Positions 6,484 through 46,592 of a stretch of DNA of 64,000 nt are shown here, piece after piece. The position numbers and the translations under genes were made by a program. The stretch covers positions 43,564,296 through 43,628,295 of the forward strand of contig NC_037590.1 of NCBI RefSeq assembly GCF_003073045.1, given 5' to 3'. The stretch's first letter is position 1, and the number at the start of each line of letters is the position of its first letter. This DNA is from Pomacea canaliculata. Taxonomy: Eukaryota; Mollusca; Gastropoda; Architaenioglossa; Ampullariidae. A model generated the notes under the pieces. It had not been told where the DNA came from and searched no databases. It saw only the letters and a list, made by a program, of their open reading frames with translations.

Positions 6484-6755
6484 GGCCTCTTGTCGTCTTC
6501 CTGTCTTTCTCTCAATTCTTGTCTGTAAAAAGCTCGGTTAGTAACGATGTTTTACTCAGTGCTGTCAGTAGGGCTGGGCACACGATTTGGCGACAGTACA
6601 AAGGTTTGTGTATGTCTTTGCCTTTTACTCCACTAGGCAATGGTGCGAAAGGAACACCTGTCTCATGCCATCATGGCGTCTTTCGCACTCTTTATCTCTC
6701 TTTATCTCTTGTCACAAGCCTGTTTTGTTCGGATGAGAACGGAAAACGCGCGTGC

Positions 6756-10226: not shown

Positions 10227-13200
10227 ATGGCTTCTCATGAAAGTGTCTTACTCTTGTGGAGTTTGTTTATTCTGAGTCTTAGACTACAGACGGCGTCTAC
10301 TTTTGGCGATCCAGGTACCGCAAGACAATGGTCACCATTGGTGACGAGAGGTAAATCCATGATCATATATATATGTGTGTGATTACATGCAGAAGATGCA
10401 CATGTTTGTGTGCAGAGGCGCGCGTGTGAGAGAGTGTATAAATAATATGTGTATAAGTGTTCGTGTGTTTGTCAATTATTTTATTGTGGTGTCATTCCCT
10501 GCTTCTATTGCCGCTAGTTTACAAGACCATTATTATCCTACACTTACAAAATCCATTAAGAATTAGTTTAAACACCACTTTAGCAAATTGAGAAAAAATA
10601 CTTTAGAAGTATATCCTTAAACTGATTTTTAAATTATATTGTCTGTTAATCTTAAATAAAATTAAATGCTACTTTCGAAGCCTTTTACTTTATTTCACTG
10701 TTTATTCCTTTACTGATGTAATGTCTGAACCAGTACAAAAAGCAGAAAGAGTACAAGAAGAACAAGAAGAACAAACACAACTATGTGGTAATCTTCACTC
10801 AGTCTGTTATCTCGCGTGTCTGTCAGTCTTTTCTTGCGTGTCCCTTGGTCAGTCTATTTACTGCTTGTTTATCGCTTAGTTCAAACTACCTCAGCAAATG
10901 TTGACAGTTCCGACAGCAAGTTATGGTGACTACACTACACACCCGCCTCTCTGACTTCTGTTGTCAGGTGGACGCCAGGGGGCTGCTGGGAGAGTACCAC
11001 GTGACTACCCGCCACCCCCACAGGTCGCCATCACACAATGAGACACGTGACTTGCTTATGTCGGTGAGTCAGGCAGCTACCGATGTGTCATCAACAGCCT
11101 TCAGACAACAGGCGACGACTGACGACACGTTGATAATGTAGAAAACGCGGGTAGTTTGATGTTACCGACTGCAGAAACTGTTATAAACATGGATTGTTCT
11201 CAACAAAATTTTTTTTCTTCTTGCATAATCAAGGGCAAGCTAGATGAATATCTATATAATATCTTAATTTCTGTAAAACTTTGCTAACAAGAGGGGTAAC
11301 ATATTATTTTCTCCACTTTTCAGCTGGTTTCCTTATTGGTATCTGTGTTGTGACAGAAAAATTGTCATCAATCACTTTGAATTGCTGCCGCATTACAACG
11401 AAGTGTTTCCTAGACTGGTATGTGGGTACCTCGTGTGTGTGTGAGAGAGAGAGGCGTGTGTGATGTATGAATAAAATAATGATGAAAATTTGAAGTGGGA
11501 AGTCAGATTGGTGAACTGCCAGGCTGGCTGGGGAAGATTATAGACTGATACACGGTAGAAATGCAATAATGCAATGAAGTATTATGTAACTAAACATCAA
11601 TTAAAATTATTTTTGAAAGTTAGCCTGCTTTTTTCATCCTCTTCTCTTTTTCGTGCTTTTTTTTTGCTTTTGCTTTTGCTACATCCGGTCACTATTATTA
11701 TCTTTTGGCTTTTTCTTCTTTAGTAAAATTAATTTGCGCGGCTATCTTACTCATCTTAAAACTAATTTTTTGCTCTATTATCTTCGACTTCACACAAAAT
11801 TGAAAAATAGAAAAATAGGCTAGACAATGACAAATGATTATGTATAGTAATGATGCCTAACATTTCCATACACTAAGAAACGATTGGTGTTTTCTAAAAA
11901 CAGAGAATAGCAGACAACCAAGTTGCTTTCCATCCATCCTCTTCAGCCTCGTCTGATCCGCCAGACCTTCCCACCTACCGCCAGGCTCTTGGCTTTGTCA
12001 GTCTGCGGAATCAATGGCAGACAAGGAATGGAGGAAAGGCTAATGGCAGAGAGCTGAGTGGCACTAAGACTGGTGTCACACTCTACCTGCCAGTGTCGAG
12101 GGCCAAACCCTGGTCGCAGCAGCAGGGTGGCCTCCCTTTGTCACCGTCAATCGATTCACATCGCAACTTACTGCGACCTCTGGTGGCAGATACAGCAGCA
12201 AGCGACTCCGGCAGCAGGGAGATGTGGCTCTATCCAACACCTAGTTACACCCTGTCAGATACAACTAGTTACACTAGCGACATCGTACCACAGTGGACAC
12301 CCAGTAATGCTAGCACCACAAAGCTGATCTCAGTTGCGGCCCCTACTAACGCTGATATCATCCTCTCAGATACAACACCTAACAACATCCTGTCGGATAC
12401 AACACCAAGTACCGCTAACGATAAAGAAACTTTATCAGATACAAAGCCTAGCAACGCCCGAGGTAAGAAAACCTCATGGTCTACACAAACAATCACTGGC
12501 TCCCATGAAACCTTGTATGACAGAACACATAGCAACACTCTCGCCATGGGGAGCCCCTCTGACAACACTCAGATTAGTACTAGAAACATAGAACTGTCGA
12601 CACCTAGCAAAACAATGTTGTCAGAGACAACAACTAGAAGCCTTACCTTGTCTCAGACAGTCCCTTTGACCTCTGTCGCCGAGGAAATCCGACCTCATCT
12701 AGCTCCAGGTAACACTAGAAACACAGGACTGGCAACAGGTACGATGCCTAGCAACCAAGACACTCTGTCACGTGGCTCACCTGGAAACACTAGCAACATG
12801 GAAATCCTGTCTGATGTCCTCCATCTGACTTCGGGTACTGCACTATGCCATCCAAGGAAGGAAGGAATAACTGCAGATGTCGGGAAAACAAAAGAGGCTT
12901 CAAGTCCAGGACCGAACACACAGAGCTCCAGCAGAGTTCAAAGTCTCGATATAACAGAAATTCCCTTAGTTCACGAAAGCCTGAAAATGGTATCAAACAG
13001 AAGTAAAGCAGGTACCGGACTCCTAAAGGCGGCTACACCTAGCACACTGGGACAGCACCAGCTTCCTGATTCTGCAGTTTTCTCTGGATTCCAAGAAAAA
13101 AATAATATTTTATTAGAACTAAAATCGTCTTTTCTTGCAAGAAATTCTGTGACCTACGAAGACATAATATTACAGGAAATATCAACAGCATTTATCGCAA

Positions 13201-15507
13201 ATAAATTCCTTGAGTCTGTAAACATTCAGCCTTCTCCACTCAGCATATCTTTCCAGACCCCTGCACCGGCTATGAAAAGCAAGACAGTTACTTTTGACAG
13301 ACTTAACCCTCTCAGTGACCTTTCTCCTACAAGCGACCTCTTGACCTCCTTCGTGATAAATCCCAGTTTTGCATTTGCAACTATGCCTACCATACCTGCA
13401 ACACCTGCCTTTGACACTGGGCGGACCAAGGATGTGTATCATCATCACAGGAACTTAGAAGACATGCAATATAATTCTGGAGGTGATGACAGTTTGAGTT
13501 ATCTGTTGGGTGAACACAGTTTAAATGTTGGTCCGCTGACATCTTCAAGGTTGGAGGACTCTCTACCTCAGCCATCCAGACGCTTCTATCATTTCCCTCA
13601 CATCATCTTCAATTCTCGAAGAGCAGAAAGAGAGTAGTCTTTTACCTACCCCATCATTTCTACTGGAAAATCAGCTTTCTTCTTTATCTATATTGACAAA
13701 ACTAGTTGGAGACTTAGATCCGATATTTATTGTGTCGAAACAAACAAAACTCCCAAACTCCATGGAATACCCACAAGAATCTGAGGAACTCGCTTCTTCA
13801 AACATCGTTTCACCGAATTTAAGTGGTCGTCGTGAGATGTTTGTTTTTTCCTCTAGTTTATCACAAGCTCCGGCAACTTCTGCGACTACACTACTATACA
13901 AACCTGCTCCTCCTCCAGGTAGCGAACCTTTGCGAGAAAATTCCCAACTGAAAGTTTCCTTGGTAACCTCAGGGATATATGTGACAGATGATTCTGATGC
14001 CTCTTCTTCAGTTCTCCCAGTGCTGACAGTCTACAGCAAGAAGTGAGCAGTGCTTACCCTTCACCTTCTGGTACTGTAAGGTTAGACCATGGCTGGCCCG
14101 CAGACCATACGGGTAAGAACACCTCCACAGGTACCCCTCTGGTCCCCTCACCTGGTGTAACGGTGTCTCAGTGGATTACAGGTACAACCGATACCTTGGG
14201 TGCTGCTAAGGGAGGTGACTGCGGTGTGTCATCTACCAGCTTTGCCGGCGCAGACGACCACGTAGACTTGAAGTGAAGAGCGCGAGGAGGTCAGAACGAC
14301 CCGCCAGCGAGGCCGGCCAGCCTAAGTGAAAGACAGCACGTGACACACGAGGGCTCCACGTCACCTGCAGTGTCCTCTACCTCCCACCCAGGTGTAGACA
14401 AAAGTCTACCTGCAAGACAAAGTCACAGTAAGCATCTTTGGTTTTTTTTCCACAAGGATGTTTACGGATGAGTGAGCGTAAGGTAGACAAACATCAAAGG
14501 ACAACATGTAGAGTACAGGGTCCTACCCTTAGTTGTTTGCTTGGAGTAAAAACACATATTCCCCTCCCTCCCGCTGCCCCGACTGGACAATCGTGTGAAT
14601 GACTCACAGGACTAGGCTAAACTAGTGAATTCATTTGTTACGATATTTTAGCTGTTTGCTAAGAGTTGACCATCCAGCTAGTCTGTAACTGTATGTTGTG
14701 CAACCGCCGCTAGACGGTCATTGCATAAGACTTCTTGAGGACAGATGATAGATGATGGTAACATTCTTCTCAAACTCCGTAAAACTTTGGTTATTACTTT
14801 TAAAAATCTTTACTTTTATGTTTATCAGATTAGTTTATTCCTTTATGTAGCATTTCTTTTCCTCTGCTTTTTATTTCTTTCCTATTTTATAACTCCTTTT
14901 TTTTTATTTTGTTCGTTTGTTTCTCGCATCTCTTATAGTCTCGTCAAACACATTCATGTAACTGCTACTGTTTATATTGTTTTGTTGAATTTTACAAACA
15001 CATCCGAGCGGCTACTAACTAGGAAGGTTGTGTAACACCAAACATACACAACACTATGTCACAGCCCTCAAGGTTGGAGCTGCCATCGGGGTAGGACTAA
15101 TGTGTCTGAGTCTGGTTGTCATGGTAATTGTGCATCGCAGCAGACGACGAGAACGGGGAAGAGATGGTTTACTTCGAGATGGAAGGCTCTTGTTACAGGT
15201 AAATTCAGGGTAGACGTTTCTTGTAACGGGTACATTGAGTATTATAATATTATTATAATTCTCAGAGCCCAATGGACATTGATATTGATATACTTATTCT
15301 TCAACGTCCACTATCAGGGTATAAAATAAAAAAGTGAAATCATGTTGGTTTGGTTGTTTTCAGAGAGATGACAACATAAGACACTGCCTACTCAGGGCCC
15401 CGAGATGGTACCCGGGGTATAGCAGAGGGCTGCACAAGGCGACTGGCAGGGAAGAACTACAAGAAACTGATCAAATGGGAATTTCAACTGTCTGTCACAA
15501 AAAGTAG
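10227..15507 (+). CDS. Mucin-like Ser/Thr-rich single-pass type I membrane protein
   Basis: Phase-matched exons: 10227-10350 (ends phase 1), 11947-14427, 15065-15198, 15364-15507; about 960 codons. Exon 1 encodes a signal peptide (MASHESVLLLWSLFILSLRL, then QTAS). Exon 2 encodes a long ectodomain dominated by Ser, Thr, Pro and Asn, with degenerate repeats such as LSDTTPSN and TLSDTKPSN, typical of O-glycosylated stalks. Exon 3 encodes a membrane span (VGAAIGVGLMCLSLVVMVIV) and a basic stop-transfer (HRSRRRERGR). Exon 4 is a 47-residue cytoplasmic tail ending VCHKK. In exon 2 the open frame moves from frame 0 (to about 13.60 kb) to frame 1 (to about 14.03 kb) and back. There is also a TGA at 14274-14276, yet total exon length keeps the phase. 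This fits small consensus errors. A second donor at 10314 is also phase 1. I do not recognise a named family. Confidence 0.72.
10968..11063 (+). other. Possible alternative 96-nt exon inside intron 1 of the mucin-like gene
   Basis: The segment is bounded by a good acceptor (ctgttgtcag) and donor (TCG|GTGAGT). It is open in phase 0 (VDARGLLGEYHVTTRHPHR...). Because the neighbouring exons meet in phase 1, including it would bring in a TGA after about 26 codons. If spliced it would act as a truncating or poison exon, or belong to another transcript. It is predicted from splice signals only. Confidence 0.3.
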
Positions 15508-17279
15508 GCAGGTGTAAAGGTGTAAAAATGATTGATAAAAATCTTTAGTAACACTCTAATAGCTATATCACACTGAAATGTTTATCAACAGCCATGACAT
15601 ATATTCCATAATTTCTTCACATGGTGCATGACATGCATCATTAGTACGTGTGGCAAAAGATTTTATTTACTTTTTTATATGGCCTTCCTCACTGTCACCC
15701 ACTTCAACAGACAGGCCATTTTAAAATAGAAAATAGAGAACATCTATTCGTGGAGAGCCGAGATTGAATTCTCGAAAGGAAAGAAGATAAAGGAAACTAT
15801 TAAACTCGTAGAGTGTCATTACCAGCCTCCATCGCCCGCTCTCCCCACAGACTTAGAAGAGAGAGTGACTGTGTTTATACCTCTCATGACGATCTCTTGC
15901 CGACAAAAGAGGAAGATAACCTGAAGTTACCCATATAACCAGCGAAGTGCCTGGGTTCCTCCTTTGCTGCCTCACTTTATCACAGCAGGATCGCTGATAT
16001 TGCATCCATTGTATTCATTTACTTCTTCAGGAAGAACATCCTGTCCTGAAAGGTTTTAGAAATGAAATGATGGCCGCCCTCGTCATCGTCCCGCCCACAG
16101 GAGGCTAAACGGGGAAACAAGAATTTTCTCTTCTTTGTACAAGTGCTTGTAGTCGACAGTTTGCGTTTCTTTGATTTCACTTTTTAATAACAGAATTAGT
16201 TTTGAACAAAAAAAACTTTTTGATAAGATCGCTTTGAAGAAGTTATTGTGATTTGAAGGAGAAATTGCCTGTAGGAGCATTTGCAAAACTAATGAGTGTA
16301 AATAAATAACAAACACAACGGTCTCAGTGTTCTCGCTCATTATTGTGTTGACTGCCTTTACTGTCAGTTTATTTTCGTTAACAAGATAACAAGTATTTTT
16401 ATTTCACCAGTGATTCTAAATCCCGAGTGATTCGTATCGACAACAAAGGCTGAAGGATTTCATGTGAAAAAATGGAAAAAAGCTATGTAGGTCAACATTT
16501 TAAACTCTTGGACTCTGTTCTCTACCACTGTTGAAACCTAATCCCATGTAAAGGTTTCCTGATGTTGATCCACTGTACCACTCGTGACTGGCATCCTGTC
16601 CCTGGAGTCATCGCCAAGACGCAAATGTCAGACGCCCTGCCTCGCTGGCTGCGGAAGACAAAGACGAGAGAGTGTGGAGGACAGAAACAGGAGCAGGAGG
16701 AGCAAAGATCGAGGCCACAAAGAAGAGATCAGCAGGAAAGGAAGCTTCTAATGATCTTATTTTTCTTCAGCGAATGGCATCGACGTTTGCCAGTCGTTGT
16801 CCGGATCTTCTTCCAGGGATCGTGACACATTGATTCCCTTCTGGAAACGACCGCAGCGACCTTCCGTTGGCTGCCTGGTGACAGACAGAGCATTGACCAT
16901 CTTGACTCATACAGTTTCTTGAAATACAGTGTTGAAACATCACCACCACATTATGAGGATTCTGTGTACTAAAATAAGTAAATAAACACAAAACACAAAA
17001 GATAAAAGGAACTTTTAATAAATGCTGCAGTTAATAATTTTCGAGATAGTTTCGATACTGAGAAGCAAATGGCTTCCATTAAATCTGAATATTTTATGAT
17101 AATGATTGTGCCATAACCATCTTTATTGGCTTGTTTGTTGTAAAGCTTGCGACTGTCAGATACTGAAAAAGATACGAGAGTTTGAGGGAAAATGTCAACA
17201 TCAGTACCTGCGCGATTTACATGTGTTCTTGTCATTCTGTTATCGGGGTTATATCAGTGCAGTTTAGCCAGTTCTATGA
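15508..17279. other. 3' flank of mucin-like gene, no further gene seen
   Basis: No spliced or single-exon coding model was found. It probably includes the 3' UTR of the mucin-like gene; an AATAAA within gtaaataaataac lies near 16300. Short open frames around 16560-16990 are not conserved as frames in the B copy. Confidence 0.45.
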
Positions 17280-17284
17280 ACAGA

Positions 17285-17390
17285 TGTCACATACAGAGAA
17301 AGAGCAGGCACCGAGACGAGAGTTGAACCCAGGACAGTTAAGCTTCACTGTGTTGCACACCGGACTGTCCATCCTATGACCAGGTGATCC
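17285..17390 (-). mobile_element. tRNA-derived SINE head (candidate), minus strand; B copy at about 31690-31815
   Basis: The reverse complement shows a tRNA-like arrangement. An A-box-like TCATAGGATGGACAG (from 17383 leftwards) precedes a strong B-box GGGTTCAACTC (around 17331-17320) at about the right spacing. The cloverleaf is imperfect and no intact tRNA can be folded by eye, so a SINE head is more likely than a tRNA gene. Confidence 0.4.
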
Positions 17391-17519
17391 TGTATGACTG
17401 GACTTTGACATTGGACATTTCGTTTGACATGGACATTAGTGAGTTGACAGATTAGAAAAAGACTTATAAATACTTGGGAATAAGACATAGAGACCAAGAC
17501 TTATTTTTTGAGTCCTTGT

Positions 17520-18198
17520 CTGACTTGTAGTTCACGAGGTGCACTGTACTTGATGCTCACATCAGATCGTTGAGACCTCGCCCACCCCAGACGTGCACGT
17601 GCAGGTGAGAATCAACACAACGCCTCGTGCAAGGTGTGGTCGTGGAGAGGAGGGGTGTACTTTGTCACACAGGTGTAGGCTATGTAATTGTGTTTGTGTG
17701 TGTTAGAGTGTATGTGTGTGATTGAGAGAGATAAAGAGTTAGAGAGAGGCTATCAGCGTGTACGCACGGGTGCGTGCTTGTGCGTATGTAAGTGTGTACG
17801 GGCTTTAGCATGACAAGAGTGCATGATCATGCGAGCTAAGCATCTTTACCAACGATTGCTAAGCAGTTTAGTAACTCAAGGGAGACAACTTCCTGCCAGC
17901 CACGGTTGTCTCCTCATGATCACGACATTTCCCAATCTCGCCGCCCACCTGTGTGTGGCGACACCGTACAGCGGGTACGCGCCACCACACTGTGGTCGTC
18001 ACCGTCTCACCACCTGGAGTGGAGCACTTGAGACTGAGAGGCGAACAGCTACACGACAAGGCTGTGCACCCCGAGTACACCACACACAACTCATCTTCAC
18101 AACAATCTCACAAAGCTAACAACACAAACCTCGGATTGTCTACTTCGCCACAGACGACATCGCTTTTATCATCTCGGGGGATGCACTTGGGCTGCAAC
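17520..18198 (+). promoter_or_regulatory. Putative promoter / 5' UTR region of the secreted coiled-coil gene
   Basis: The stretch immediately upstream of the start codon is more GC- and CpG-rich than its surroundings. It includes a possible 5' UTR splice donor (cacgtgcag|gtgaga near 17605) and a 9-bp inverted repeat GGAGACAAC...GTTGTCTCC at 17881-17913. It is open in the frame of the start for some distance, so a longer N-terminus (ATG at 18181) is possible. However, the signal peptide begins best at 18199. Confidence 0.35.
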
Positions 18199-21100
18199 AT
18201 GATCCACTCGGTCGTCGTGTTACTTTGTGTGTGCCTTTGTTTGTTTATCACCATTAACGGCTACCCAGCAGGATTTCCAGGTGAGTACAAAAATATCAAA
18301 GACATTTTTTTGAACTGTTTGTCATGGCGTCTGAGCGTTCGCGCAGTTTTCTGTCAGTTAAAATGTCAGACTTTAGCAGAGGACGAATAAACGTTTGATT
18401 TCTTCGATTTTTGTCTGCACGTGACACAGTTGTAGCCTCAGCTAAATGTCGACGGGTACAAGTGGAATGCGATTGATAAAACCGTGAAGGACCGCACCTA
18501 ACAATGCAAAAGCAAACAGCGAAACATGTTTGTTTGGATTGTAGACCTTCTCCGTCTGACAGCAATGGAGGGCGACACACAGACACCAGCCTCTGCTCCT
18601 CACATCTCACGTGGACAAGAAATCATGTCAAGTAGTTTGTGGACAGAAGGATGTCAACTTTATCCTCACAGTCACAGTAGTTGGTTAATGAAACACGAAA
18701 TTAACTGAGGAGCAAGAATGGTTGATCATAGACAGATCGGGTATCCAGTCCACACTGCTTGTCATGCTACATGACTGCTCCTCCGTGTGTGTGTGTGATA
18801 ATTTTATTCCTGGGGTAGTGTTTGAATGTTTATTTGTTTGTGTAGCGTGTATCCAACTAAAATTCACATACACACCCACACCCACACACACTATTATCTG
18901 TTTGCACCGATGGTGACTGTCACTAGTTTTAGTTATTATTCTGTTCGTCAGGAACATTCTAAAGTTCTTCCCTCTGAAAGATGAGTTAAACAATTATTTG
19001 AGCCTCTTATCGAGGTCTTGCTTACTTTAGCAGCCGGTAAATCAGGATCCACACAACTGAAGGCTCGGGTGTTGAAGGCAAATATGCAATGTGATGTATC
19101 CCGGGTGCGTAGCAAGGGGTGTACTACAACTGTTTCCTGTCGACTCAGTGCCCTCTGACCTTTACTGATAACCTCAGCCTCGTTGTGAGATGGATGGGGC
19201 CCTGGGAGGAGGGCATCGGTGCAGTGTGTTTGACCTCCACCATAGTAGCAATAATCAGATATCAGGATCTGACATTAACTCTTATCATTTGTGTACAAAA
19301 TAATTCTGTATTGTAATATTATTTAAATACGAAACTACTATATATATTATTTATTTCAAATATCTGCAGTGTTTACAATGTTGCAATGACAATCTAAATT
19401 ATTAAAGCTGTTATGATATGAAACTCATCAATCTGTGATCACACATTGCACATCTCATTCTATTATTATAATTAGTATTTTTTGTGTCTGCTTCATCCAC
19501 AAACAGTCCAATGTACATGTCGATATAATTCAAAAGAATAAATATAAACTTGTTTATAATCTACTTTTTGCTGTTTTGCAGAAAGACGTGTTTCGAGAGA
19601 CCTTGACCAGGTACCTGTAGTTTTCTCCTTGTATGGGACCACAACATCATAAAAGATGTTGCAGAAAAATATAATGATATCAGAACAGGGGTTGAAGCTG
19701 AAATAATAGTTGTAATGATTGTTTTCACTCCAAAAGTGCCTTGTGAAAGCCGCCGTCTGTAATCATTTTGTGATTCCACCATGGCTTTCTTCGGGACAGA
19801 GACAATGACTGATGCTTTGAAACAATGTCCGACCACAGTGAGATGGAGATGGGGATGGGGATGGGGAGGGACTGTGTTCCAGACAGAAGAGGACTAGTTG
19901 GTACAGTAGGAGACACAGTCAGTGCCAGCTGCTTTCCTAAACATTTGTTGCCGGAATAAGTTGCTCACCTCGTGTTCACTTATCACAAGGGGAAGTGGTA
20001 GTTGTGAGCTGTGGTGGCCACTGGTGTTGTTACTGTTTTGATCAAATGGTTTTATATAGTGATAGCTCAATGAGAAAATTAGCTTGATTAAATAACCCAT
20101 CACCAGTACCAGGCAATCTAGACACCTTTATTCAATTTTTGGAGCTACTCAGCTGTCGACTCCGCGAGAAACTTTGTGTAGACGTCACTAGCACAAGGGA
20201 GATAATTTACTTCGTCCAAAGGTTGAAGAGGAGAGTTATCGTTTCAATGACTCCGTGAACACTTGTCAGTCTCTCTAGTCGGGGAGATTTATGTCAGAGG
20301 AACAGCTTTCTTTCTTGTGCACTAGAGAGATCATGGTAGATAAAAACATGTCACAGGGAGGTTGACTGCAGTGTTACAAGTCGTAACTGTAACGCTGACC
20401 TGCTTACCTCCGCCTGAATGAAACAAAAGACGATCTGAGAGGTTTATCAGGGGAAAGAAGAGGAGCATACTCTTACTTTCAGTCGACAATGTCTTTAACA
20501 CGCAGTAAATCTTTATTAGTGTACACCAATGTACCTTAGTTTTCTCAAACAACAAAATAAAACATATTTTAGAATAAAAGGCCGTCGGTCGTCATGTTTA
20601 CCCACGCCTTCTGTTTGTAATTTGCTTTTCTGGTCTGCAAATTTTACTTTTCATAAATATACCTTTAGCAATAAAAATAAATATAACCTTTAGCAATAAT
20701 TCCTACAAATTACACTTAATGATTGTTGCCTTTTCTGTCTTCCAGGCTGAGACTCTGCGCACCCAGGTGTGTAAACTTCTTCTTTATTATCATGCGATGT
20801 GTTTCCTAACAATGTACTAAGGTGCTGAAGTGGTTGTGTTGTATGAATTCATTCTCGTATTTATTATTTCTTATAATTTTTTGTTTTAAGAATTTAATTT
20901 TCATTGGGCATAGAATTATTTAGGGATGTCCAAATATGTCAAATATTAAAAAAAATATACAATAATTATCTACAATTAAATATAGTTTTATATTATATAT
21001 AAATATATAGTATGCATAGTTTGTAACTGTCCATATTTTTTCAGCTGAAACGATTGCAAGAGAAGGTAAGGTACACTAAACTTTTTTGGATTTAGCTATA

Positions 21101-27100: not shown

Positions 27101-30100
27101 AAATTCGGTTGAAGTCGTAAACATTCAGACCTTGCGCACTTCAGCGCATATCTTTCCAAGGACCCCTGCAGCCCGGCTAGAAAGCAAGACAGTTACTATT
27201 TGACAGACTTTACCCTCTCAGTGACCTCTGAGCGTGCTCCGTACAACGCGACCCGTCGTTGACACTCTGTACGTGATAAATCCCAGTTTTGCATTTGAAT
27301 ATCTATGTCTACCAGTACCTGCAAACACACTGCCTTGACACTGGTGGCGACCAAGGATGTGTAATCATCATCACAGAACTTAGAAGATGCAATATAAAAT
27401 TATGGCACAGATGAGACATGTTTGTGTTATACCGGTTGGGTGATAGCGGAGGAGTCTTAAGCATGTTTTCCTTTGTTCTGACATCTGAGAGGTGGGAGGA
27501 CTGCAGTACTTTGCAGCCATGCAGAGCATTTATGGATTTCCGTCGCATACACAACTCATCTTCAAAGGTTTTCTCGAAGAGCAGAAAGAGAGAGTCTTTT
27601 TCCCCTCCACCGAGTTCATTTCTACTGGAAAACTCCAAGCCTTTCTTCTTTATCTATATTCGACAAAATAGTTGGAGACTTAGATTTCGATCATTTTGTG
27701 TCGAAACAAACAAAACCCACAACTCCATGGACTTTCCCCGGGAGCACAAGAATCCGTGAGGAATCGCTTCTCAAACATCGTTTCACCGAATTTAGTGGTC
27801 GTCGTGAGATGTTTGTTTTTTTCCTACTTACGTGATTTATGCAGCAAGCTCCCGCATCCTTCGGGCGACTACAACTACTAATAACAAACCTGCTCCTCCT
27901 CCCCGGTAGCGAACCTTTGCGAGAAAATTCCCAACTGAAAGTTTCCTTGGTAACCTCCAGGGATATAATGCTGAGCGATTGATTTCTGATGCATTCTTCT
28001 TCAGCTTTCTCAAGTGCTGACAGGTTACCAGCAAAGAAGTGGCAGCTGCTTTCCTTCACCTTCTTGTACTGGGGTAAAGGTTAAACCATGGCCTGGCCCG
28101 CAGACCATACGGGTAAGAACACCTCCAAGGTACCGCGAACTCACACACGCACTCAGCGAGGCCGGAGTTTTTATAGGCAAAAATTCGCCGCCTGGTCCCC
28201 TCACGCTGGTGTAACGTGTGTTGCGCTCAGTGGACTTACAGAACAACGAAGATTACTTGGGTGCTGCTTCAAGGAGGGTTGATTTTTTGCGGTGTGTCAT
28301 CTACCAACTTTGCCGGCGCAGGCCACGACCGACGTAGACTTGAAGTTGAGAGAGCGAGCGAGGAGGTCAGTAACGTATTTGACAACCCGTCCAGTTGAGG
28401 ACCGGCCCAGCCTACAGTGAACAGACAGCACGTGACACACGAGGGCTCCACGTCACATGACAGTGTCCTCGCACCTCCTACACCCAAGGTGTAGACAAAG
28501 TCTACCTGCAAGCAAAGTCACAGTAAGCCTCTTTGGTTTTTTTTCCAGCAAGGATGTTTACCGCTGAGTGAGCGTAGGTAGACAAACATCAAGGACAGCA
28601 TGTAGAGTACAGGGTCCTACCGCTTAGATCTGTTTGCTTGGAGTAAAAACACAATATTTCCCACCCATCACGTGCGCGACTGGACCAATGTGTGAAGAAC
28701 TCACAGGACTAGCTAGAACTAGTGACTTCATGTCTGTTAGTCGAGAGTATTTTAAGTTGTTTGCTAGGAGGTTGACCATGACGCAGCCTCAAGAGTCTGT
28801 AACTGTATGTTGTGAGCATCCCGCCACGCTAGATGATACAGGTCATAGGAGTGTGAATTAGAGACCTAGTCTTAGTGGCGCATGCGGAGCGACAGGATTG
28901 ATAGAGTATGATGTAACATTCTTGTCTCACATTATGATCGTAATAGGTGTCTTTGGTTTATTGTACTTTTAAAAATCGTGCCTAATCGGTGGCATAATGG
29001 TCATTAGTCGAGGATTGTATTTTATTCGCGGCTTTAGTAGCATTTATCTTTTCCTCTGCTTATTTATTATCTTTCCGTATTTTGATAAACTCCTTTTTTT
29101 CATGGTTTTGTTCGGTTGCGGTGTGTATTCATACGCATCTCTTATGGTGCTGCAGTCAAGAGCTCACGATGTCTCAGTGTTCTACTGTTGCAATATATGT
29201 TTTGGGATATCTGAATTTTCAAACAAACACAGTCCGAGTGGGAGGCTACTAACGTAGGATAGTGTGTGTAAGCGATGACCAACGGACTCTAACGGCACAG
29301 AGGCATACTGTCATCAGCCGCGCTACACAGGAGTTGGAGGCTGCCATCACCGGGTAGAACTGGACTATGTGTCTAGTTCTGGTTGTCAATGGTAACTTGT
29401 GCATCGCAGCACGACGACGAGAACGGGAAGAGGAATGGTGTACTAAGGCTTTGATCGAGATAGGAGTAAGAGCTCGTGTTACGGTTAAGGTAACTTAGGG
29501 TAGACGTTTCTTGTAAACAGGAAACAATTGAAAGTATATAATAGATGGAGGGGATTGTAGGTTCTCAAGAGCCCAATGGACATTGGATAGTTGTAAGCTT
29601 AATGTCTTCAACGTCACCACTAATCATAGGGTGATAGAAAGTAAAACGGATGGGTGAGAAATCATAACGTTTGGTTTGCGTTTGTTTTCAGAGAGAGATG
29701 ACAACGAAAGACACTGCGTACTCAGCTGTGGCCCCGAAGATGGAGACCACACGAGAGTATAGGTGGAGGCATAGAGGAGGGGCTGCACAAAGAGGCGCGA
29801 CTGGCAAGAGAGAAGAGGCGGAGAAGAAGGAGGGCAAATGGAATTTTCAAACACTGTTGTCACAAACAAGTAGGCAGGTGTACAAGGTGTAAAAAATGAT
29901 TGATAAAATCTTTAGTAACACTATCTAATGCTATATTAACTGAAATGGTTTTCAACAGCCATGACGCACCCATAATTTCTTCATGGGTGCATGAACATGG
30001 CATCAATAGTACGGTGGGCAAAAGATTATGTTATCTTTATTTACGATGGGGACTCTTGCCCCTCACTGTGCACCACACTTACAGACAGAGCCATGTTAAA

Positions 30101-33100
30101 ATAGAAAAGGAGAACATCTATTGGTGGAGAGCCGCAGATTGAATCGGTCGAAAGGAAAGGAAGATAAAGGAAACTATTAAACTCGTAGGAGTGTCATTAC
30201 CGCCACCTCATACGCCCGCCTCGTGTACCGCACCGAACACTCACACACGCACTGTGTTTATCCTCTCATGAATCTCCTGCGACAAAAGACGGAAGATAAC
30301 CTGAAGTTACCCTATAACCAGCATATGCCTGGGTTCCTCCGTTGCTGCTCCTTATCACAGCAGGACGGCTGATATTGCATCATTGTATTCCATTTACTCT
30401 TCAGAAAGAACATCCGTCCTGAAGGATTTTAGAAATGAAACAGGGCGCCGCTCGTCATCGTCCGCCACAGAGGCTAAACGGGAAAAACCCAGGAATATTT
30501 CTCTTCTTTCAAACAGAGTGCTTGTCCGACAGTTTTGCGTTTTCTTTGATTTCACTTTTTATTAACAGAATTAGTTTTGAACAAAACTTTTTGATAAGAT
30601 CGATTTGAGAAGTGTATTGTGATTTGAAGGAACAGAATTGCCTGTAGGGAAGATTGCAAAAACTATGAGTGTAAAGTAAATAACAATCACACAGAAAGTC
30701 ATCAGGTAGTTTCTCCGCTCGATTAGTCGGTGTTGACTTGCTGTACGGTCAGTTTATTTTTTCGTTTACACAACGATACACACGTATTTTTATTTCAACC
30801 ATGTGAATTCTAATCCCGAGTGATCGTATTCGACAACAAAGAGCTGAGAGGATTTTCATGAAAAGATTGAAAAAACTACGATAGGTCAACATATAAATGC
30901 TCTTGACTCTGTTGCATCTACCACTGTATGAAAACCTAATCCCATGTAAGGTTCTGACTGTTGATTTGTCCACTGTGACAAACTCGTGACTGCAATCCTG
31001 TCCCTTGGAAGTCCATCGCAGACGCAAACTGTCAGATTGCCCTGCTCGCTGGCTGCGAGACAGAGACGATGAGAGTGTGGAGAAAGAACAGGAGCAGGAG
31101 GAGCAACAGATGCGAGGCACAAGAAGAGATCAGAGCAGGCAATGGAAGCTTCTAACTGATCTTATTTTCCTTCAGCGAATGGCATGCGACGTTTGCCACG
31201 TCGTTGCATCGGTCTTCTTCAGGGATCGGACACATTGATTCCTTTCTGGAAACGAACCGCAGCGAACCTTCCGTGCTGCCTGTGAACGACAAGAGCATTG
31301 GACCATCTTTGAACTCATACGTTTTCTTGAAATACGTGTTGAACATCACCCACATGGATGAGGGATTCTGTGTACTAAATAAGATAAATAGAACAAAAAC
31401 ACAAAGATAAAGAATTTTAATAAATGCTGCCAGTTATAATTTTCCGAGATTACGTCTCGACTACTGGAGAGGCAGATGGCTTCATTAAATCTGATCTTTT
31501 GATGATAATGCTTGTGCATAAGCCATTCTTTGTTGCTTGTTTGCTTGTAATAAGCTTCGCGACCTGTCAGATACTGAAAAAGATAAGAGAGTTTGAGGGA
31601 TAAATGTCAACATGCAGTACACTGCGCGATTTACGCGTGTTTCTTTCTCATCTCATGTTATCGGGTTATATCAAGTGCAGTTCAGCCAGTTCTATGACCA
31701 GATGTCACATACAGAGAAAGAGCAGGCACCTAGAGAACGAGAGTGAACCCAGGCAGTATAAGCCCCTCAACATGTGTTGCACACCGGACTGTCATCCTAT
31801 GACCAGGTGATCCTGTATGACTCGGACTCTATGACATTCGACTTTCGTTTGACATGGACATTAGTGAGGTTGACCAGATTAAGAAAAAAGACTATAAATA
31901 CTGGGAAGAAGACAGAGCAGACCACGCACTATTTTTTGAGCCCATTGTCGACTTGTAGTTCACGAGGTGCACTGATACTTGATGCTCAGCATCAGATCCG
32001 TGAGCCTCGCCCACCCCAAGAACGTGCACGTGCAGGTGAGAACAACAAACGCCTACCGGCCAAGGTGTGTCGGTGGAGAGAGGGTGTACTTTTGTCCACA
32101 CAGGTGTAGGCTATGTATTGTGTTTGGTTGTGTGTTAGAGTGTATGGTGTGGTGTGAGAGAGAGATAAGAGTAGAGAGAGGCTATCTAAGCGTGTAAGAC
32201 GGGTGCGTGCTTGTGCGTATGTAGTGTGTAGCGGCTTTAGCTGCACAAGAGGCAATGATCAGCGAGCTAAAGCATCTTTACCAACGATTGCTAAGCAGTT
32301 TAGTAACTCAAGGGAGACAACATCCTGCCAGCCCACGGTTGTCTCCTCATGTCGCGACATTCTTCCCAATCTCGCCCGCCCAGCTCTGTTTTTTGGGGGA
32401 CACTGGGTACAGAGCGGGTATCGCGCCACCAACTGAGTGGTCGTCCACCGTCTCAGCCACCTGGAGTGGAGCACTTGAGACTGAGAGGCGAACAGCTACG
32501 CACGACAAGCTGTGCAGCCCCGAGTACACCACACAGAACTCAATCTCACAACAATCGTCACAAGCTAACAACCAGACCTCGGATTGTCTACTTCGCCACA
32601 GACGAATCGCTTATCATCTCGGGGATCACTTGGGCTGCACATGACAGCATCGGTCGTGCGGTTACTTTGTGTGTTGCTTTTGTTCTGTTTAAACACCATT
32701 AATCGGTTTACCAGCAAGGATTCCAGAGGGAGATACAAAAAATATCAAAGACATTTTTGAACTGTTTGTCGATGGCGTCTGGAGCGTTCGCGCAGTTTTC
32801 GTCAGCTTAAAATGTCAGACTTTAGCAGAGGGCCGAATAAACGTTTGATTTCTTACGAATTTTCTGTCTGCACGTGACTCAGTGTAGCCGGAGCAAGAAA
32901 ATGTCGGCGGGTTAACAAGTGGACAATGCGATTGATAAAACCGAGAAGGCCGGGCGACGCTGAAACAAATGGAGCAGTAGACAGCGATACAACAGCGAAT
33001 AACGCATATAGCTGTTATGTTATGGACTTGTATCGAGCATCCCCCGGTCTGACAGCATAAATGGAGGCTGACAACCACATTCGGCAAGCCAGCGCCCTCA

Positions 33101-36100
33101 CTAGCTCACATCTCACACGTGGGAACAAGAGATCATGATTCAAAAGTAGTTTGTGGACAGAGGGATGTCGACTTAGAACCCTGCAGTCATAGCAGGACGC
33201 CAAGCGAGTTGGTGTTAACATGAGAACCCGTGAAACACACTAGAGAGTCTGGTGGAAAATCTGAGGAACAGACAATTAATCATAGAGACAGATCTCGGTA
33301 CCAGTCCTGTACTGATTTGTCATAGCTACTGATGCTGTCTCCGTGTTCTGTGTGATAGATTTTATTCCTGGGGTAGTGTTTGAGCATGTTCTATTTGCTA
33401 TGTGTGAGCGTGTGTGATCCAACTAATTCATCTTAACAAACATACACACCCACACCCACACACACTCACCGACTGAGGTTCAGCGCGGAGGATTTATCTA
33501 TGCCTCATTTGCACTGATAGTGCAAAGAGTGCACATAGTATTTAAGGCAGCAGTTACTATATGTCCTGGTTATACTCGTCGGCCAAGACGTGGACTGTCG
33601 TGCTGCAATCTGAAGCATAAGAGAGTCCCGCGTTGTATGCGTGTTACTAATGTCACAAATCAATTCTACGTCAAGTTTTTGGTGCCACTCGGGAAACTAG
33701 CGGGAGCGGATTAACAACTTTATGGACTGCAGCTCTCGGCATTTATCCGGACAGGTCGTGTGCTAGGATTCTGAACATAATATAGCACGCTGGTTCAAGA
33801 AATCAAGCGTATCCCACGACAACTCGTAGAAATCGCGCCTCGCGGTGTGCTGAAGCGGAGTAAAAATGCCTAGCCAGAATTGGTAGGTATGTATCAACGC
33901 CGAGTGCGTAGCAAGGGGTGTACTACAACTGTTTCCTGTCGACCTCAAGAAACGGCCCCTCGATGCCCATTTGCGTGATAGGGGAACTCAAGCGCAGGAG
34001 TCATAATGAGAGTATTGGTGATACGGGTAGAAGCCCGCTGGAAGAGAGAAGGGAGTGAGAACAAGAAGCGATGGGGAATAGGTACTGCAGTTCGTTCTGA
34101 CCTCTACCATAAAACAGCAGACAGCAATCAGATAAATCAGGATTTGCCGACTAAGAGTGTAACATCATAAACACGTTATCAATGTACACAAATATTCTGT
34201 GTGTTACAAGGTTATTTAACACGAAAGCTAGCTATTTAATGATTTAGTTCTCAAATATGTGCAAAGACTAGTGTTTAGAATGTATGCAATGACAAGCAGT
34301 CTATATATTATTTAAAGCTGCTAGTCGCAGTAAGTGAAACTCTCGCAGAACTGTGGATCACAGACCATCGCAGCAGTTCTCATTACATCCTTCTGGTAAT
34401 ATTAGTGATTATTTGATGATCCGTCGCCATCAGTGCAAGACCAAGTCCGCAGGTGATAATGTCGATGATCGTTTTCGGAGACAATTAAATATGAAATCTT
34501 GTTTATAAATTATCAATTTATGCTGAGTTTGCGCCGGAAGACGGAATGGATGGTCGAGAGAAACACCATTGACCCAGAAGTACCGTAAATGCAGTACTAT
34601 CGATCGTTAGGAGAAGTGGATAGCACAAGCCAGGCTATTGGCGGACTCTTCCTAAGATCAGATGAGAAGAGAGAACACTCGTCATAGGAGGGACTCTATT
34701 ATTAGAACATAGGTGAGCGGAGAATATCGAGGCACATGGTCTGATATTTGAGCTGAGTGAGAGACCCACAGAGCGAGAGTGCGGTGGAGGGACTATGCCA
34801 CACTAGATATGGGACACGCCTATTCCAAAATTCTAAGACGGAGAGTTAGGTCGTTTCAGACGACGCAGTGAGCACTAGGCAGATCTCCTGCAATCTCGGA
34901 GAGATTGTATGTCAGAGCAGCGGCGAAACAGCTTTTGACTTTGTCACTAAGAGAGCGATCCGATAGGGTGAATAAATGACGCAGGGAGACGGCGACTGGC
35001 AGGTAGCTTACAAATCGAGTGTGACCTGACCTCTTACCGCGGTAACTCCAGCCTGAGAATGAACAAAAGCCACTTGATTCGAGTAAAGGTTTAAGATTTA
35101 GAGCAAAGGCATACTCTTACTTTCAGTCGACCACCAATTTTCTTTACGATCGGCGGCACAAGTAACGATCCTATATTAGGTGTAAGCACAGATAATTAGT
35201 TTTCTCGAACATTACAAAATAAACCAATTTGGAATACACAAGGCGTCGTCGTGATGTGTACCCACTCTGATCTACTTAGCTCGTAAGTTGGGCTTTTCCG
35301 TCGCAAATTTTACTTTTCCATAAATATAACTTTAAGCAATAAATAAAGAAGTATGAACCTTTAGCGAATATTCCTATTTACAAATTTACCACTTAGTGGA
35401 TTGTTTGCCTCGGACCCTCAGTGTCTTCTTCCAGTCGCTGAGACTCTAGCGCACACCCGAGGTGGGTACAATCTATCTCTTTAATTGATCATGCGCGAGT
35501 GTCTCACTAACGATAGTATAAGGTGCTGAGTGGCCTATGTGGTTGGCGAGTATGCAATATCATGAGTCTCGTACTTTAGTGTTCTTTTAATTTGTTTTAA
35601 AAACAAAAAAGAATTTTTTCATTGGGCTAGAATTACTTAGAGGATGTCCAAATACATGTCAAATATAAAAAAGTATATACAATAATTATCTATAATTAAA
35701 TATAGTTTTATATTATATATAAATTATACATAGTTTGTAACTGTCCATATTTTTTCAGCTGAAACGATTGCAAGAGAAGGTAAGGTACACTAAACTTTTT
35801 TGGATTTAGCTATATGACATTTCCTTATTTGACAAATCAGCGCATTTTACTTTTTGTTTAAATGTTCTTCTCCGTTAAAGTAGTTCTTCTCCCCCGACAG
35901 TCGGTTTGTGCAATACTAACTCATACAAAGACCCCGCCGATACAAAATAAAGACAAACCACAATACAGGGAGGTAGATGATGTAAGTAATCACACCTAAT
36001 ATTGATAAACTTGTAAACAAGGTGTTGTGGAATCGCTAGGAAAAGTGGATTTGTTTGTAGCTGCTATTGTCATGAACTCCTGTATCAGATTTCCCATCTG

Positions 36101-38426
36101 GAGGCCAGTGAGATGGGGGTTCGGCCGACTCCCGAGATGCCGCGCGACGCGAGAGTCAGCGAGAACGACGACAAGGCGGAGTCGGACATCAGCAGCCTCG
36201 CCAACGACCGCACGGCCCAGACCATCAGCGCCATCTCGGACAACCAACGAAAGATTCAGAGCTTGGGGAAAACTCTGTCAGACAAGAAACCTGTCTCACA
36301 GGTAGGGAGGAGTTTCATAGTCAGTTGTTGATCAAAGACAACTGTTGAAACTCCACACAGGCTGCTGTCAACAACTCTATGTAGTGTACTTTAAAATGTC
36401 ACCTGTCTGTTTGCCTGTATTTTATTTTTCAACTGTCTGCTGCTCTGGAAGTCTCGACTCTCTGTTGTTATGCTTGAATTCGTATTTTTTATTTGCTAAA
36501 GCCTCATTGAATTCCTACTGGATTTGTCATACTTGTGTATCTTCTTTAAAAGATTTTATTGTATCCTTCAGTCAAAAACTGTTTTTCTTATGGAGTGAAA
36601 TTACGGTACACATCAAGTCTTACCGATATTACTGTGTTAGTGTGGATTATTATGTGTTTTGTTTAGGTTCTCAAAGAGGCCTTAGAGAAGCTGCGTGAAC
36701 AAGAAGCTTCTCAGACACGGAGTGGATACAAAGAATTCAGCAGGAGGTAATGTTACAGAAGTTCTTTCTCGCTGTCAGATGAGGGAACCTCAAAGTGTTT
36801 CAGTAAAAGTTACTTAATGTATTTTACTTTAAATGTCATGTTTAATATGATTTGCATTCAGAATAACACACACGCTAATCAACTGGCAATATAAAGGACA
36901 ACACGAGTGCCAAACACAAGAATAGAACTTTGCCAATATGACGATGCTGCAGCGGTGAGAGATGAGAGTTGTTTGTCTCAGAGTACCTTGGTGACAACTA
37001 TCTTCCTCAAGAGGAGGGGGAGACGAAAGTCCCTCAGTCTGCCAATGGAGGAGAGTCTGACAGAGGGCAGAGACTGGAGGCCATCTACAGAATGTTGCTT
37101 CGTATGTACAGCAAACAGTCGGACAGCAAAGTGAACTCTGGTCACGAGGACGGCCCCAATGGCGGTATGACAATGTTTGCTTGACACTGAGATGTCACAT
37201 CCTTGTAGATAATCCTTAAAATTGAAAAATCTGCCTAACAACATCAAACAAATGGTTAACATCAAGCTCTTGTTTTTAAATCTTTATTTGCTACATCCAC
37301 ATTTTTGTGTGTGTGGATTTTCATTTTCTTTCGTTATTTCGGTTTATCGGCGTTTTACTTTCTTTCATTTGTTTGCTATTTTGTTTTTGCTCCTGTTCAT
37401 TTTTTTCCTTTAATTCATTTTGCGATATTATAAGAATTGTTAGGAGAAACAATCACTTAAATGATCAAGATTTTCTGATTGGAGGAAGAGGGTGCTGGAT
37501 TATGTTCTTAAAGCTGGAAAAGTTTGGTGAATCTTGAAATGTAGTGGGGACACTGCATTACTAGCTGACTTTTTGGTACAATGAGTTTGGACTGTTCTAT
37601 TAGGTTTATCTATATATATGTGTGTGGAAAATACTGTTTAATCTCCTCCTAAAAAGATGGGAAACATTTTGTTATTTTCGAACAGAAGTGCAGCAAGACA
37701 GACAGGAAGGACACACACCTGTCCAAAGTGACAGTGAGTTTCGAGACGCAGGTGAGTCTCAGGTGTAAAGGTAGTGATGATGGTTGGTCCCACAGAAGGT
37801 GGTGGACTTGTCGCTCATATAATGAAGATGTTGTATTCAAGTGTAGTTGATTTTTGTAAATATGAAATATGTGTTGACAGAACTTTTTTAATTTAGTAAT
37901 AATTTAGTATTATGGTTTCATGTTCACGTTATTTGAGTGAAACTGTAACTCCTAACTCTTACCAAAAGGGAAAAAAAGAATTATTTTACGTACATAAGAA
38001 GGGAGACAATAACAGTACGTTAGAAGTTTGTTTCTCTTGCACATATTTGTAGAACTTGTCTCACAGGAATCTTTGTATTTTCATTTTTGTAACATCCCGT
38101 TGGCATCTGCAGTGCTGGAAGCGTTCGAAGTGAAACTTTTGAAAGATCTGGACCTCGCAGAACAAGCCGGCTTTTCTGTTGAGGAAATCATGGCCGACCT
38201 TCGAAAAAAGAGTAAGGACACACACACACACATGTATGCTAGTTGAATAAATGTTGAGTTTGTGTGTATGTCTGTGTTTTAAGGGAGAGAAAGTAGCAGT
38301 CAAACTCAATGTAACTATTTATCCTGCTAATGACCCACTGGTGCTCCAGGTGCCAGAGACCAGCAGACGAGGCTGCAGACCATCAAGAGGCAGCTGGACG
38401 AGTTGGATCGCTCCCCCAGGCTGTAG
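18199..38426 (+). CDS. Secreted coiled-coil protein, nine exons, split across the assembly gap
   Basis: Clean exons in A: 18199-18280, 19582-19610, 20746-20766, 21045-21065 (repeated at 35759-35779). Clean exons in B: 36089-36301, 36667-36746, 36862-37164, 38113-38211, 38350-38426. Every junction is phase-matched. The product is about 310 residues. Residues 1-22 are a signal peptide (MIHSVVVLLCVCLCLFITIN). Heptads RRVSRDLDQ, AETLRTQ, LKRLQEK, ISHLEA follow, then an acidic Ser-rich linker, more helix (VLKEALEKLREQ), a central region (EYLGDNYLPQEEGE), and a C-terminal coiled coil (RLQTIKRQLDELDRSPRL-stop). Exon 7 is 303 nt in B but needs 305 for phase, and the A copy supplies the two missing bases. 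B also has an in-frame TAG there where A reads CGA, so part of exon 7 is uncertain. No globular domain was recognised. The likely role is extracellular oligomerisation; the function is unknown. Confidence 0.72.
21375..23628 (+). pseudogene. Error-rich duplicate of exons 5-9 of the secreted coiled-coil gene (segment A end)
   Basis: Counterparts of exons 5 (21375-21577), 6 (about 21924-21998), 7 (22113-about 22407), 8 (23333-about 23426) and 9 (about 23556-23628) are all present in order with their splice sites. Each contains single-base losses or gains that break the frame relative to 36089-38426. I read these as duplicate assembly of the same exons and not as a second gene. Confidence 0.65.
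24647..24746. other. Assembly gap of exactly 100 N
   Basis: One hundred consecutive N, the usual placeholder for a gap of unknown size. The sequence on its left matches about 39440 and the sequence on its right matches about 11.15 kb, so the two contig ends overlap and do not abut. Confidence 0.99.
25695..29880 (+). pseudogene. Error-rich duplicate of exons 2-4 of the mucin-like membrane protein gene
   Basis: Exon 2 counterpart at 25695-28522 (acceptor ctcag|CCTCG and donor CACA|GTAAG retained), membrane-span exon at about 29330-29487, tail exon at about 29692-29875. The Ser/Thr-rich frame is broken many times. The signal-peptide exon has no counterpart because it lies left of the overlap. 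The tail counterpart is open in a different way (TAYSAVAPKMETTREYR), so the true tail sequence is uncertain. Confidence 0.6.
32641..35779 (+). pseudogene. Error-rich duplicate of exons 1-4 of the secreted coiled-coil gene
   Basis: The signal-peptide exon is recognisable at about 32641-32728 but out of frame. Exon 2 is barely recognisable at about 34535-34580. Exon 3 lies at about 35434-35461 with extra bases. Exon 4 is identical at 35759-35779. The last is where segment B becomes clean. Confidence 0.55.
33480..33905. other. Sequence present in B without a match in A
   Basis: Between the CA-rich stretch near 33465 and the shared gtagcaaggggtgtactac (33907; A 19109) lie about 425 bases, where A has about 200 bases of different sequence. 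It shows no coding frame or repeat signature and has a more GC-balanced, random-looking composition than its surroundings. It could be misassembled sequence or an allelic insertion. Confidence 0.5.
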
Positions 38427-38646
38427 TGTCCATGATGTGCAATGTATTGGAACTCTGTCTTTGGAACTCACTCACAGGTCGAACTTCCGCACCCACTGTG
38501 TTCATGGCTCAAAATCAAAACCTCTGAAGTTCTAAACTTATGTTCCGCAGAGAAGCTACATGTCTGAGTTGTCTAGTAATACTTCAGGACACAGATGTTG
38601 CGATTTTAAGCGCTCGTGCAGTTGTCAACTAATTACTGTCTCCTTA

Positions 38647-38652
38647 AATAAA
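38647..38652 (+). terminator. Polyadenylation signal of the secreted coiled-coil gene
   Basis: AATAAA within ccttaaataaacagcc, about 220 bases after the stop at 38424-38426. It is conserved at the homologous place in segment A (about 23842). Confidence 0.5.
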
Positions 38653-39450
38653 CAGCCACAAGCATAATGGCAGTATTGAGATAAAGTTGTCATCAAAGTT
38701 GCTAGCCATTGTTTTTGTGTAGTGTTTCTAAAAATAGCTTAAAAGACAAGTGATTTAGTGAAGAACATATAAAGATTTAAAGACAATCCATTTCATCTTT
38801 AAAGAGAAAATTTTTTTTATCTAACACTTTTCGCTGTCTTCCCTAATTGCCACTATTTGGTTTTTCATCATTTTCTTTTTTCGAGTCTAAAGCACTGACA
38901 GCTTTGATATGATGACATTATCCACAAACGGTCTGTGACATGTTGTTTATGACATTCATGTGACACCTGTACTCACTGCAGTAATCTTCCAGCAGCAACT
39001 ATGAGTATTGCCTGCACCTGCTTACTCCAGCTCCACTATTTCTCCACATCTACTTTCTGTCACAATAATTTTTCTGTCACATACTACTATTATACTTAAT
39101 AACAATAATCGCAAAAGCAATCGAAATCATTTAGTACATTTTATCACCGTTATATAAGGATTAATTTTTAGTTTAGATACATCCTGTTCTCATACTTCAC
39201 TTCTTGTCTCTGTGTGCATATCATAAAAAATGAAAGTTACTAAGGATTGGAACATATTAAAACAATCATATTTGATAAGTGCTTTTGATAGGAAGAAAGT
39301 CCGCAAAGCAATCACCGAATCGTGAGATAAAATTGTAATTGATTCAACTAAACGACAATTGAGAACTTGTTTGTTCTATGGATTGAAATAACAGAAATAA
39401 ACAAGGAACACTTTACAGTCCTGTTGTACAACCCTTCATTCTATATCAGA

Positions 39451-40715
39451 AGATCTGGTTACCAAGGTTTTGACCATATTGGAAATATTGTGAAAAGAAG
39501 CTCGACTTTCCAGCCTTTTGTCCCATGGAGATCACATTGTTTGAAATGAAACAGAATATTGACTGATGTCAGTAATTTGTTATGTATACTCTTAGGTGAT
39601 GATATTCTTTATCTGAAAAGCATGTAGATAATTATCAATATGAAAACAAAAAGAAAGATTAGATTGGTAATAAATGATGTGTTCTGTTCAATGACATTTA
39701 GAAGTCTGTTTATGAATAAATGTGAATATTCTGACAGAACGTGTCTCTGATCCATGGACTACTTCTTCTCATCCACCAGCCTCGTTCTTTGTCACTTTTT
39801 CCTTCTTCTCATTGTCAAGACTTTAGATCGTTGGGTACAGACGACGCCGACAGTGTTTATTCTGCTCCATGGATTTTCTTATCATCATCATCGGCAGCAG
39901 CAGCATCATTCTCATCCTCCTCCTCATCATCATCCTCATTATTTATTTTAAACGTGTCTTTTCGAAAGAGAAATGCGAAGGAATAACAGACACATTGTAG
40001 TATTGTGAACATGTGACTACAGAATATTTTTTTATAATGCATTGTGTGACAAAAATATGAAAAAGGTTAGGATGTACAGCCTTGAGATGGCGCCGTGTAT
40101 TGTTTTCATAGTTTCGGGACATATAAAAAAGCCACTACAATGTTGTGGCTGTGGTAAAGGCCATGCAACACAGGTCATTGACGATGAGACTCATCGACGA
40201 CGACAATGTCAAAAACACGATTCAAGACGACATCGCTCGCTACTTGTAAGAGAAATCCGGTAACCAGATGTAATGAATGTCATTTTGCCTCATTTTCTAA
40301 TAAAAAATCCTAAAATGTAGAAATTTACTGAAAATGTGGGTGGGGTAAAAAATATCTAGCACTGACTCTGAACACATTCGTGCAGAAATGTCTGAATCTC
40401 AAGTGAGATATAAAAAAAAAACTAGATTGACTAGTAAGTAAATACTAAATTACTTTCCTTTACACCTACATGTATCAGCTGATAATAATATGGTCAATTT
40501 TGATTATTTATGGTCTTTTTTTTTTTTTTTGTCTTTTATGTCATCGACATATCAATATCCGTGATAACGACTTGTCATAAAAAGCATCGCCGTCACCGAC
40601 AGTGGATGAGTAAGTGCAAGGACTGTAGATAATAAATTTTGTTAGACAGAGACCAGGCAGACCAGTCTTACTGGATCCAGAAGACAGAGAGCGGGCATGT
40701 CAGCTACACGACACA
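39451..40715. other. Non-coding stretch right of the duplicated block
   Basis: Only short open frames, AT-rich, with a CAT/CTC-rich low-complexity patch at about 39885-39945 and a T-run near 40517. I see no gene here. Confidence 0.5.
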
Positions 40716-40717
40716 GA

Positions 40718-40815
40718 AAGGTGGTCCGATAGTGTATTGGTACAGAACCTGTCTTCACTGGAGTGAGAAGCACAAAGGCCTGCGTTCAAATCTGGTCTCG
40801 GGAAACACAAACACA
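40718..40815 (+). mobile_element. tRNA-derived SINE head (candidate)
   Basis: A tRNA-like head with an A-box-like GATAGTGTATTGGTA at about 40728-40742 and a B-box GCGTTCAAATCTGG at about 40792-40805, spaced as in tRNA promoters. A body follows to about 40960. It lies against the 3' end of the minus-strand cysteine-rich gene. The element family is not identified. Confidence 0.5.
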
Positions 40816-40966
40816 TTTTTATCTCGTTGTGAATCTGCTGGCGGGTCTAGACATTAGGAGCTTCCCAACCCTCCCCATGTTTCCAGGTTTCCTCCCTTTT
40901 TGTAGCCCCTGTCCTCCTTAGATGACAAATGATATCCACGCAAGGTGGGGGCACTTCGTCGTCAAA

Positions 40967-43662: not shown

Positions 43663-43669
43663 ATCTGTG

Positions 43670-44480: not shown

Positions 44481-44539
44481 CCTCGCTACTAATATTCCTT
44501 CATCCCGAGCTACATGACAGGAGGTCGTCGCTGCAGCGA

Positions 44540-44860: not shown

Positions 44861-44899
44861 CAGCACTCCGTGAAAGCATTGTAGTGCACTCAAAGCTCA

Positions 44900-46480: not shown

Positions 46481-46504
46481 CAACGACAAGCAGGAGCTGG
46501 GGAG

Positions 46505-46592
46505 GAGACAGTACTGATGTGAGTACAACACAATGAACTTCTCTCAGTTTGGATGACAGCACTCTGACCACTCGGCTCTCCACTACTTCTGG
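46505..46592 (-). mobile_element. tRNA-derived SINE head (candidate), minus strand
   Basis: The minus strand reads GGAGAGCCGAGTGGTCAGAG, a very good Leu/Ser-type tRNA A-box (about 46581-46562), followed by GAGAAGTTCATTGTG, a degenerate B-box (about 46545-46531). The lack of a full cloverleaf favours a SINE over a gene. Confidence 0.45.

Follow-up and report, generated by a model that had tools for sequence, protein, structure and literature searches.

Two collinear copies around a scaffold gap in Pomacea canaliculata: a probable false duplication from unmerged contig ends

The window, i.e. the whole 64 000 nt stretch of P. canaliculata DNA that was analyzed, contains two segments that are homologous over their full length and flank a 100-N gap: copy A at 11115–24643 and copy B at 24747–39456. 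We regard this pair as almost certainly a false duplication, with or without some internal haplotype difference. The apparent second gene copy would most likely be an assembly artefact produced by two contigs that were placed end to end and left unmerged. An unmerged contig overlap had already been proposed in the initial annotation, and this reading is supported by the dovetail geometry of the ends, by the read-like spectrum of differences and by frameshifts that are complementary about one homologous point.

Geometry and gene content of the duplicated block

A block of 13.5–14.6 kb had been described as present twice around the gap, and self-comparison of the window (E up to 1e-10) recovered it as six pairs of A and B pieces, all on one same-strand diagonal with 80.7 to 95.8% identity; simple repeats (53.1/56.4 kb and 63.6 kb) account for the remaining pairs. 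The gap itself (24647–24746, 100 N) is the sole N run in the window. In a noise-tolerant alignment of the ends, B 24747, the first base past the gap, pairs with A 11115, and A 24643, 3 bases short of the gap (the contig ends at 24646), pairs with B 39456. The collinear homology of the initial annotation was thereby recovered, but its block starts lay 35 bases (A) and 93 bases (B) too late. Two contig ends that overlap as a dovetail have this geometry, here with offsets of 0 and 3 bases from the edges of the gap, and the repeat has its outer limits where the other contig runs out. A tandem duplication would need ends that coincide by chance with the gap on both sides.

Each copy is composed of an accurate and a noisy part, all on the forward strand. 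The accurate part of A (11115–21100) is the right-hand portion of the left contig; it is followed by the noisy contig end (21101–24646), in which the indel counts against B consist chiefly of missing bases. The right contig starts with the noisy part of B (24747–35670), where extra bases prevail in the counts against A, and continues with the accurate part (35671–39456), which runs without a gap into the unique sequence on the right. A stretch of ∼550 bases in A (19650–20200, edges approximate) has no counterpart in B.

None of the ten open frames of the block reached the cut-off in a Pfam search, and a PDB search with its 579-codon frame (see below) gave no match up to E 1. Below the threshold, 15019–15210 matched Syndecan (E 0.056) and EphA2_TM (E 0.2), which is weakly consistent with a transmembrane helix only, and 36966–37181 matched Erythro-docking (E 0.11). 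Searches of the window for tRNAs and Rfam families gave no match, nor did megablast of 40000–52000 against plasmids. Outside the block, the reverse strand carries an open frame at 6118–6537 whose product looks secreted and matches the von Willebrand factor C domain (VWC2L_2nd E 5e-12, VWC E 8e-10). A rhodopsin-family (7tm_1) receptor is located at 54432–55369 on the forward strand; its domain match changes frame near 54797–54803, with 26.6 bits in one frame (below the cut-off of 30.5) and 73.6 bits in the other. The frame change may mark a short intron that went unrecognised, a pseudogene, or an error that persisted in the consensus beyond the limits of the block. Among the best 60 of 366 PDB matches to this region, receptors for pyroglutamylated RF-amide peptide and the gastrin/cholecystokinin type B peptide receptor ranked at the top. 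Together with the way exons and introns are arranged, these two flanking genes make an animal the likely source. A perfect ATT microsatellite of 31.7 copies occupies 63568–63662.

Spectrum of the differences between the copies

The differences between A and B resemble read error and not evolution. With a low gap cost and A 11150–18880 as reference, 1218 bases are extra in B, 298 are missing and 260 mismatch; A over 21130–24560, compared with B, misses 234 bases, has 131 extra and mismatches at 43. For each mismatch there are thus 5.8 gap bases in the noisy part of B and 8.5 in that of A. In the same alignments, 972 of 1016 indel events (A 11150–18880) and 284 of 288 (A 21130–24560) comprise 1–3 bases, in agreement with the initial annotation, which had described the differences as mostly indels of this size. 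It had also described them as evenly spread, and this was not borne out: counted in steps of 250 bases and with the divergent zone excluded, B gains between about 0.05 and more than 0.3 extra bases per base, a several-fold variation, and the ∼550 bases of A are unmatched in B.

The balance of gaps and mismatches depends on the alignment. In the three longest blastn pieces, gap openings exceed mismatches (342/122, 441/170 and 396/154), but MAFFT with costlier gaps yields more mismatches than gaps between the copies. Simulations were therefore carried out under two gap costs, each in three runs, with divergence modeled as 18% substitutions and 2% indels. For A 11150–16149 we observed 6.35 gap bases per mismatch at the low and 1.66 at the high gap cost; simulated divergence gave 0.37–0.46 and 0.09–0.10, respectively. 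Simulated read noise gave 6.7–7.2 and 1.67–1.82, an agreement that is partly by construction as the noise rates were chosen near the observed values, and it produced fewer missing bases than observed (113–118 versus 186, low gap cost). For the right-hand part, simulated by three divergence runs only, the observed ratios of 8.27 and 1.29 compare with 0.20–0.30 and 0.05–0.09. The informative part of the simulations is the failure of divergence to give the observed spectrum: at either gap cost and in both parts it stayed within 0.05–0.46.

The noise has an opposite bias in the two copies, with B rich in insertions and A rich in deletions (odds ratio 7.3 and p about 1e-58 from base counts); a single error process of raw reads can therefore not have yielded both tails. 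Probably they were made differently, for example from a nearly raw read in one case and a thin consensus in the other. As a possible pointer to the sequencing platform, raw PacBio reads are generally rich in insertions, but a tabulation in PMC5964698 places deletions above insertions.

We also compared transitions and transversions among isolated mismatches, i.e. those with four matching bases on each side. The noisy part of B (against A 11150–18880) contains 18 transitions and 35 transversions (n = 53); the transition share equals the one third of random error (p = 1.0) and differs from one half (p = 0.027) and from 60% (p = 0.0002). Substitution-dominated divergence with an excess of transitions, as expected of a tandem segmental duplication, was thus not found; together with the gap-to-mismatch ratio this share is what sequencing errors in a homotype false duplication would give, but the ∼550-base segment is not so explained. 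Ten further isolated mismatches lie outside these p-values, with transition-to-transversion counts of 3:1 in the divergent stretch, 1:3 in the last noisy part of B and 2:0 in the switch zone.

A possible but rather unlikely explanation of the pair is that A and B represent the two parental haplotypes, which were not merged as they differ, and each of which was poorly corrected on one side. This would likewise be an artefact, with real allelic differences, and it overlaps with the unmerged contig ends favored here and does not exclude them. Heterotype (haplotype) false duplications, the target of purge_haplotigs and purge_dups, also place copies side by side across a gap and create an apparent extra gene copy. 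The noisy part of A offers some room for this explanation, as its nine transitions and seven transversions (9/16) exceed one third, non-significantly (p = 0.064), and a few allelic SNPs may be among them. However, the excess is gone in stricter contexts (3 transitions and 5 transversions with six matching bases on each side, 1 and 3 with eight), and the isolated base differences in the noisy part of B, with their random share of 18/53, fit read error and not allelic SNPs. Over most of the block the noise would mask any SNP signal.

Reading frames, consensus quality and the ∼550-base stretch

To the left of about 21 kb, a long reading frame is open in A and broken in B. From stop to stop, A 11898–13637 stays open for 579 codons; frames in the counterpart at B 25640–27594 reach at most 110 codons, and of the 247 indels that B has within the A frame only 8 are multiples of three. 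The end of the A frame at 13637 lies within another open frame on the forward strand (13540–14046, 168 codons), and this overlap may mean that a frameshift has persisted even where A is accurate. The exon-like block A 20746–20766 is disrupted in B by three indels whose lengths are not multiples of three. For A 19582–19610 we counted seven (two multiples of three), but B is poorly positioned by the alignment at this place, which makes the count uninformative.

To the right the situation is reversed. In B, four exon-like blocks (at 36679, 37686, 38113 and 38350) stay open and are edged by splice-like AG/GT or, in the last case, by a stop; their A counterparts carry 10, 3, 8 and 7 indels, respectively, without a single multiple of three. 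In a fifth block, B 36088–36302, one of the 13 indels of A is a multiple of three, but the frame has 68 codons in A and 71 in B, so frame length alone cannot tell the copies apart there. On the left it is thus B whose frames are broken, and on the right it is A, for four of the five blocks, as differing consensus quality in a homotype duplication would have it.

The quality switch falls at about A 20950–21130 and B 35670–35850. A switch at the same homologous range in both copies, as the initial annotation had placed it, is therefore confirmed, with the frames complementary about it. The range holds a perfect run of 99 bases, at which a small block (A 21045–21065) is the same in both copies. 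It also holds a C/T difference and small indels within an otherwise clean zone; these would suit two haplotypes, and the perfect run argues against them. As an alignment-free measure, we trained an order-4 model on the flanks and took the entropy that it assigns to each block, with one block across the switch excluded from both counts. Entropy is higher in B for 19 of 19 left blocks and higher in A for only 4 of 6 right blocks, with small differences. The mirror image of quality that had been claimed thus stands for the coding frames and for the entropy of the left half, and the entropy of the right half lends it weak support.

The ∼550-base stretch of A exceeds base-level noise. Of the 150-base pieces of A, the six with starts from 19600 to 20100 had no significant match in B 33201–35700 and scored within 1.3 s.d. 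of shuffles. In B, the place of this stretch is taken by about 34633–34805; B 34633–34808 compared with the rest of the window on either strand (33001–35500 masked) did not exceed 20 shuffles. A missed-adapter palindrome was rejected: with shuffles scored on the forward strand, 0 of 26 overlapping 150-base pieces of A (18500–21149) beat the best of 60 shuffles on the reverse complement of B 33201–35700. The difference could be a heterozygous insertion, which would favor two haplotypes, or a defect of the read that forms the tail of B; a mobile element as its source is possible. Among exact repeats no terminal inverted repeat framing the stretch was found, and a second copy of it was not found in the window. 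Direct repeats of 8 bases with a separation of over 200 bases occur six times in 19560–20330 (exact repeats only), which by our own estimate is about the number expected by chance, and one of the six (19690 and 20221) lies near both edges. The motif AAGGGAGATAA, which we take to be frequent in mollusc repeats, is found at 20195, inside the stretch.

Origin of the duplication and its consequences

A mirror image of consensus quality would also be expected if two real and very recent, nearly identical tandem copies existed, the assembly broke at their junction and reads were mapped to one copy in each part. We consider this highly improbable, as it requires an assembly break that comes no more than 3 bases from the junction on either side, and it is less simple than an overlap; two contigs carrying haplotypes that differ by a ∼550-base insertion would be less far-fetched. 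A genuine tandem duplication in which one copy, or both, decayed to pseudogenes is barely credible: it shares two collinear, adjacent copies on the same strand with the pair described here, its sole point in favor, and is rejected on the difference spectrum and the simulations, as the indel-dominated differences and the random-error share of transitions are unlike simulated divergence, the frames are broken in complementary parts, and the ends of the duplicate coincide with the gap edges, unlike the outcome of evolution.

The false duplication by unmerged contig ends may be pictured as follows. We infer a single locus from which a noisy long-read assembly produced two contigs overlapping by about 13.5–14.6 kb. 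The reads of this locus would have been split between them, such that correction reached as far as about 21.1 kb in the left contig and began at about 35.7 kb in the right one, and both tails would have been left poorly corrected. Merging probably failed because the overlapping tails contained too many errors, and the scaffolder would then have abutted both contigs with a fixed gap of 100 N. Several points count against this reading: the ∼550-base gap in B, the opposite bias of the noise, the entropy in 4 of 6 right blocks, the 68-codon frame kept in A and the mismatch counts of MAFFT.

In the description of the Vertebrate Genomes Project, homotype duplications lie near contig boundaries, have about the length of a read and differ in consensus quality (Rhie et al. 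2021, PMC8081667); gaps between the copies and low depth are named among the primary characteristics of false duplications (Ko et al. 2022, PMC9516828). As far as these descriptions go, A and B share the position at a contig boundary (homology ends 0 and 3 bases from the gap edges), the read-like length, the scaffold gap between the copies, the differing consensus quality and the errors in the ends, but here a ∼550-base segment also differs; the homotype class is defined by read depth and k-mer counts, and A and B are putative members, judged from the sequence alone. A figure legend of the former paper presents a combined homotype/haplotype example (PMC8081667), and A and B may likewise be a mixture in which the haplotypes differ to some extent.

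A 21100 pairs with B 35814, so that about 14.7 kb of the window, the N run included, would be surplus, close to the 14 kb first suggested, and its 64 kb would represent about 49.3 kb. Everything to the right of the gap would then sit about 14.7 kb too far away, and annotators could call two tandem paralogues of one gene, each damaged by frameshifts. False duplications and the false gene gains that result from them have already been described (PMC8081667, PMC9516828), and the pair adds nothing new on biology; it is a teaching case of a false duplication that is recognisable without further data types, by its dovetail ends, indel-heavy spectrum, random ratio of transitions to transversions and complementary broken frames.
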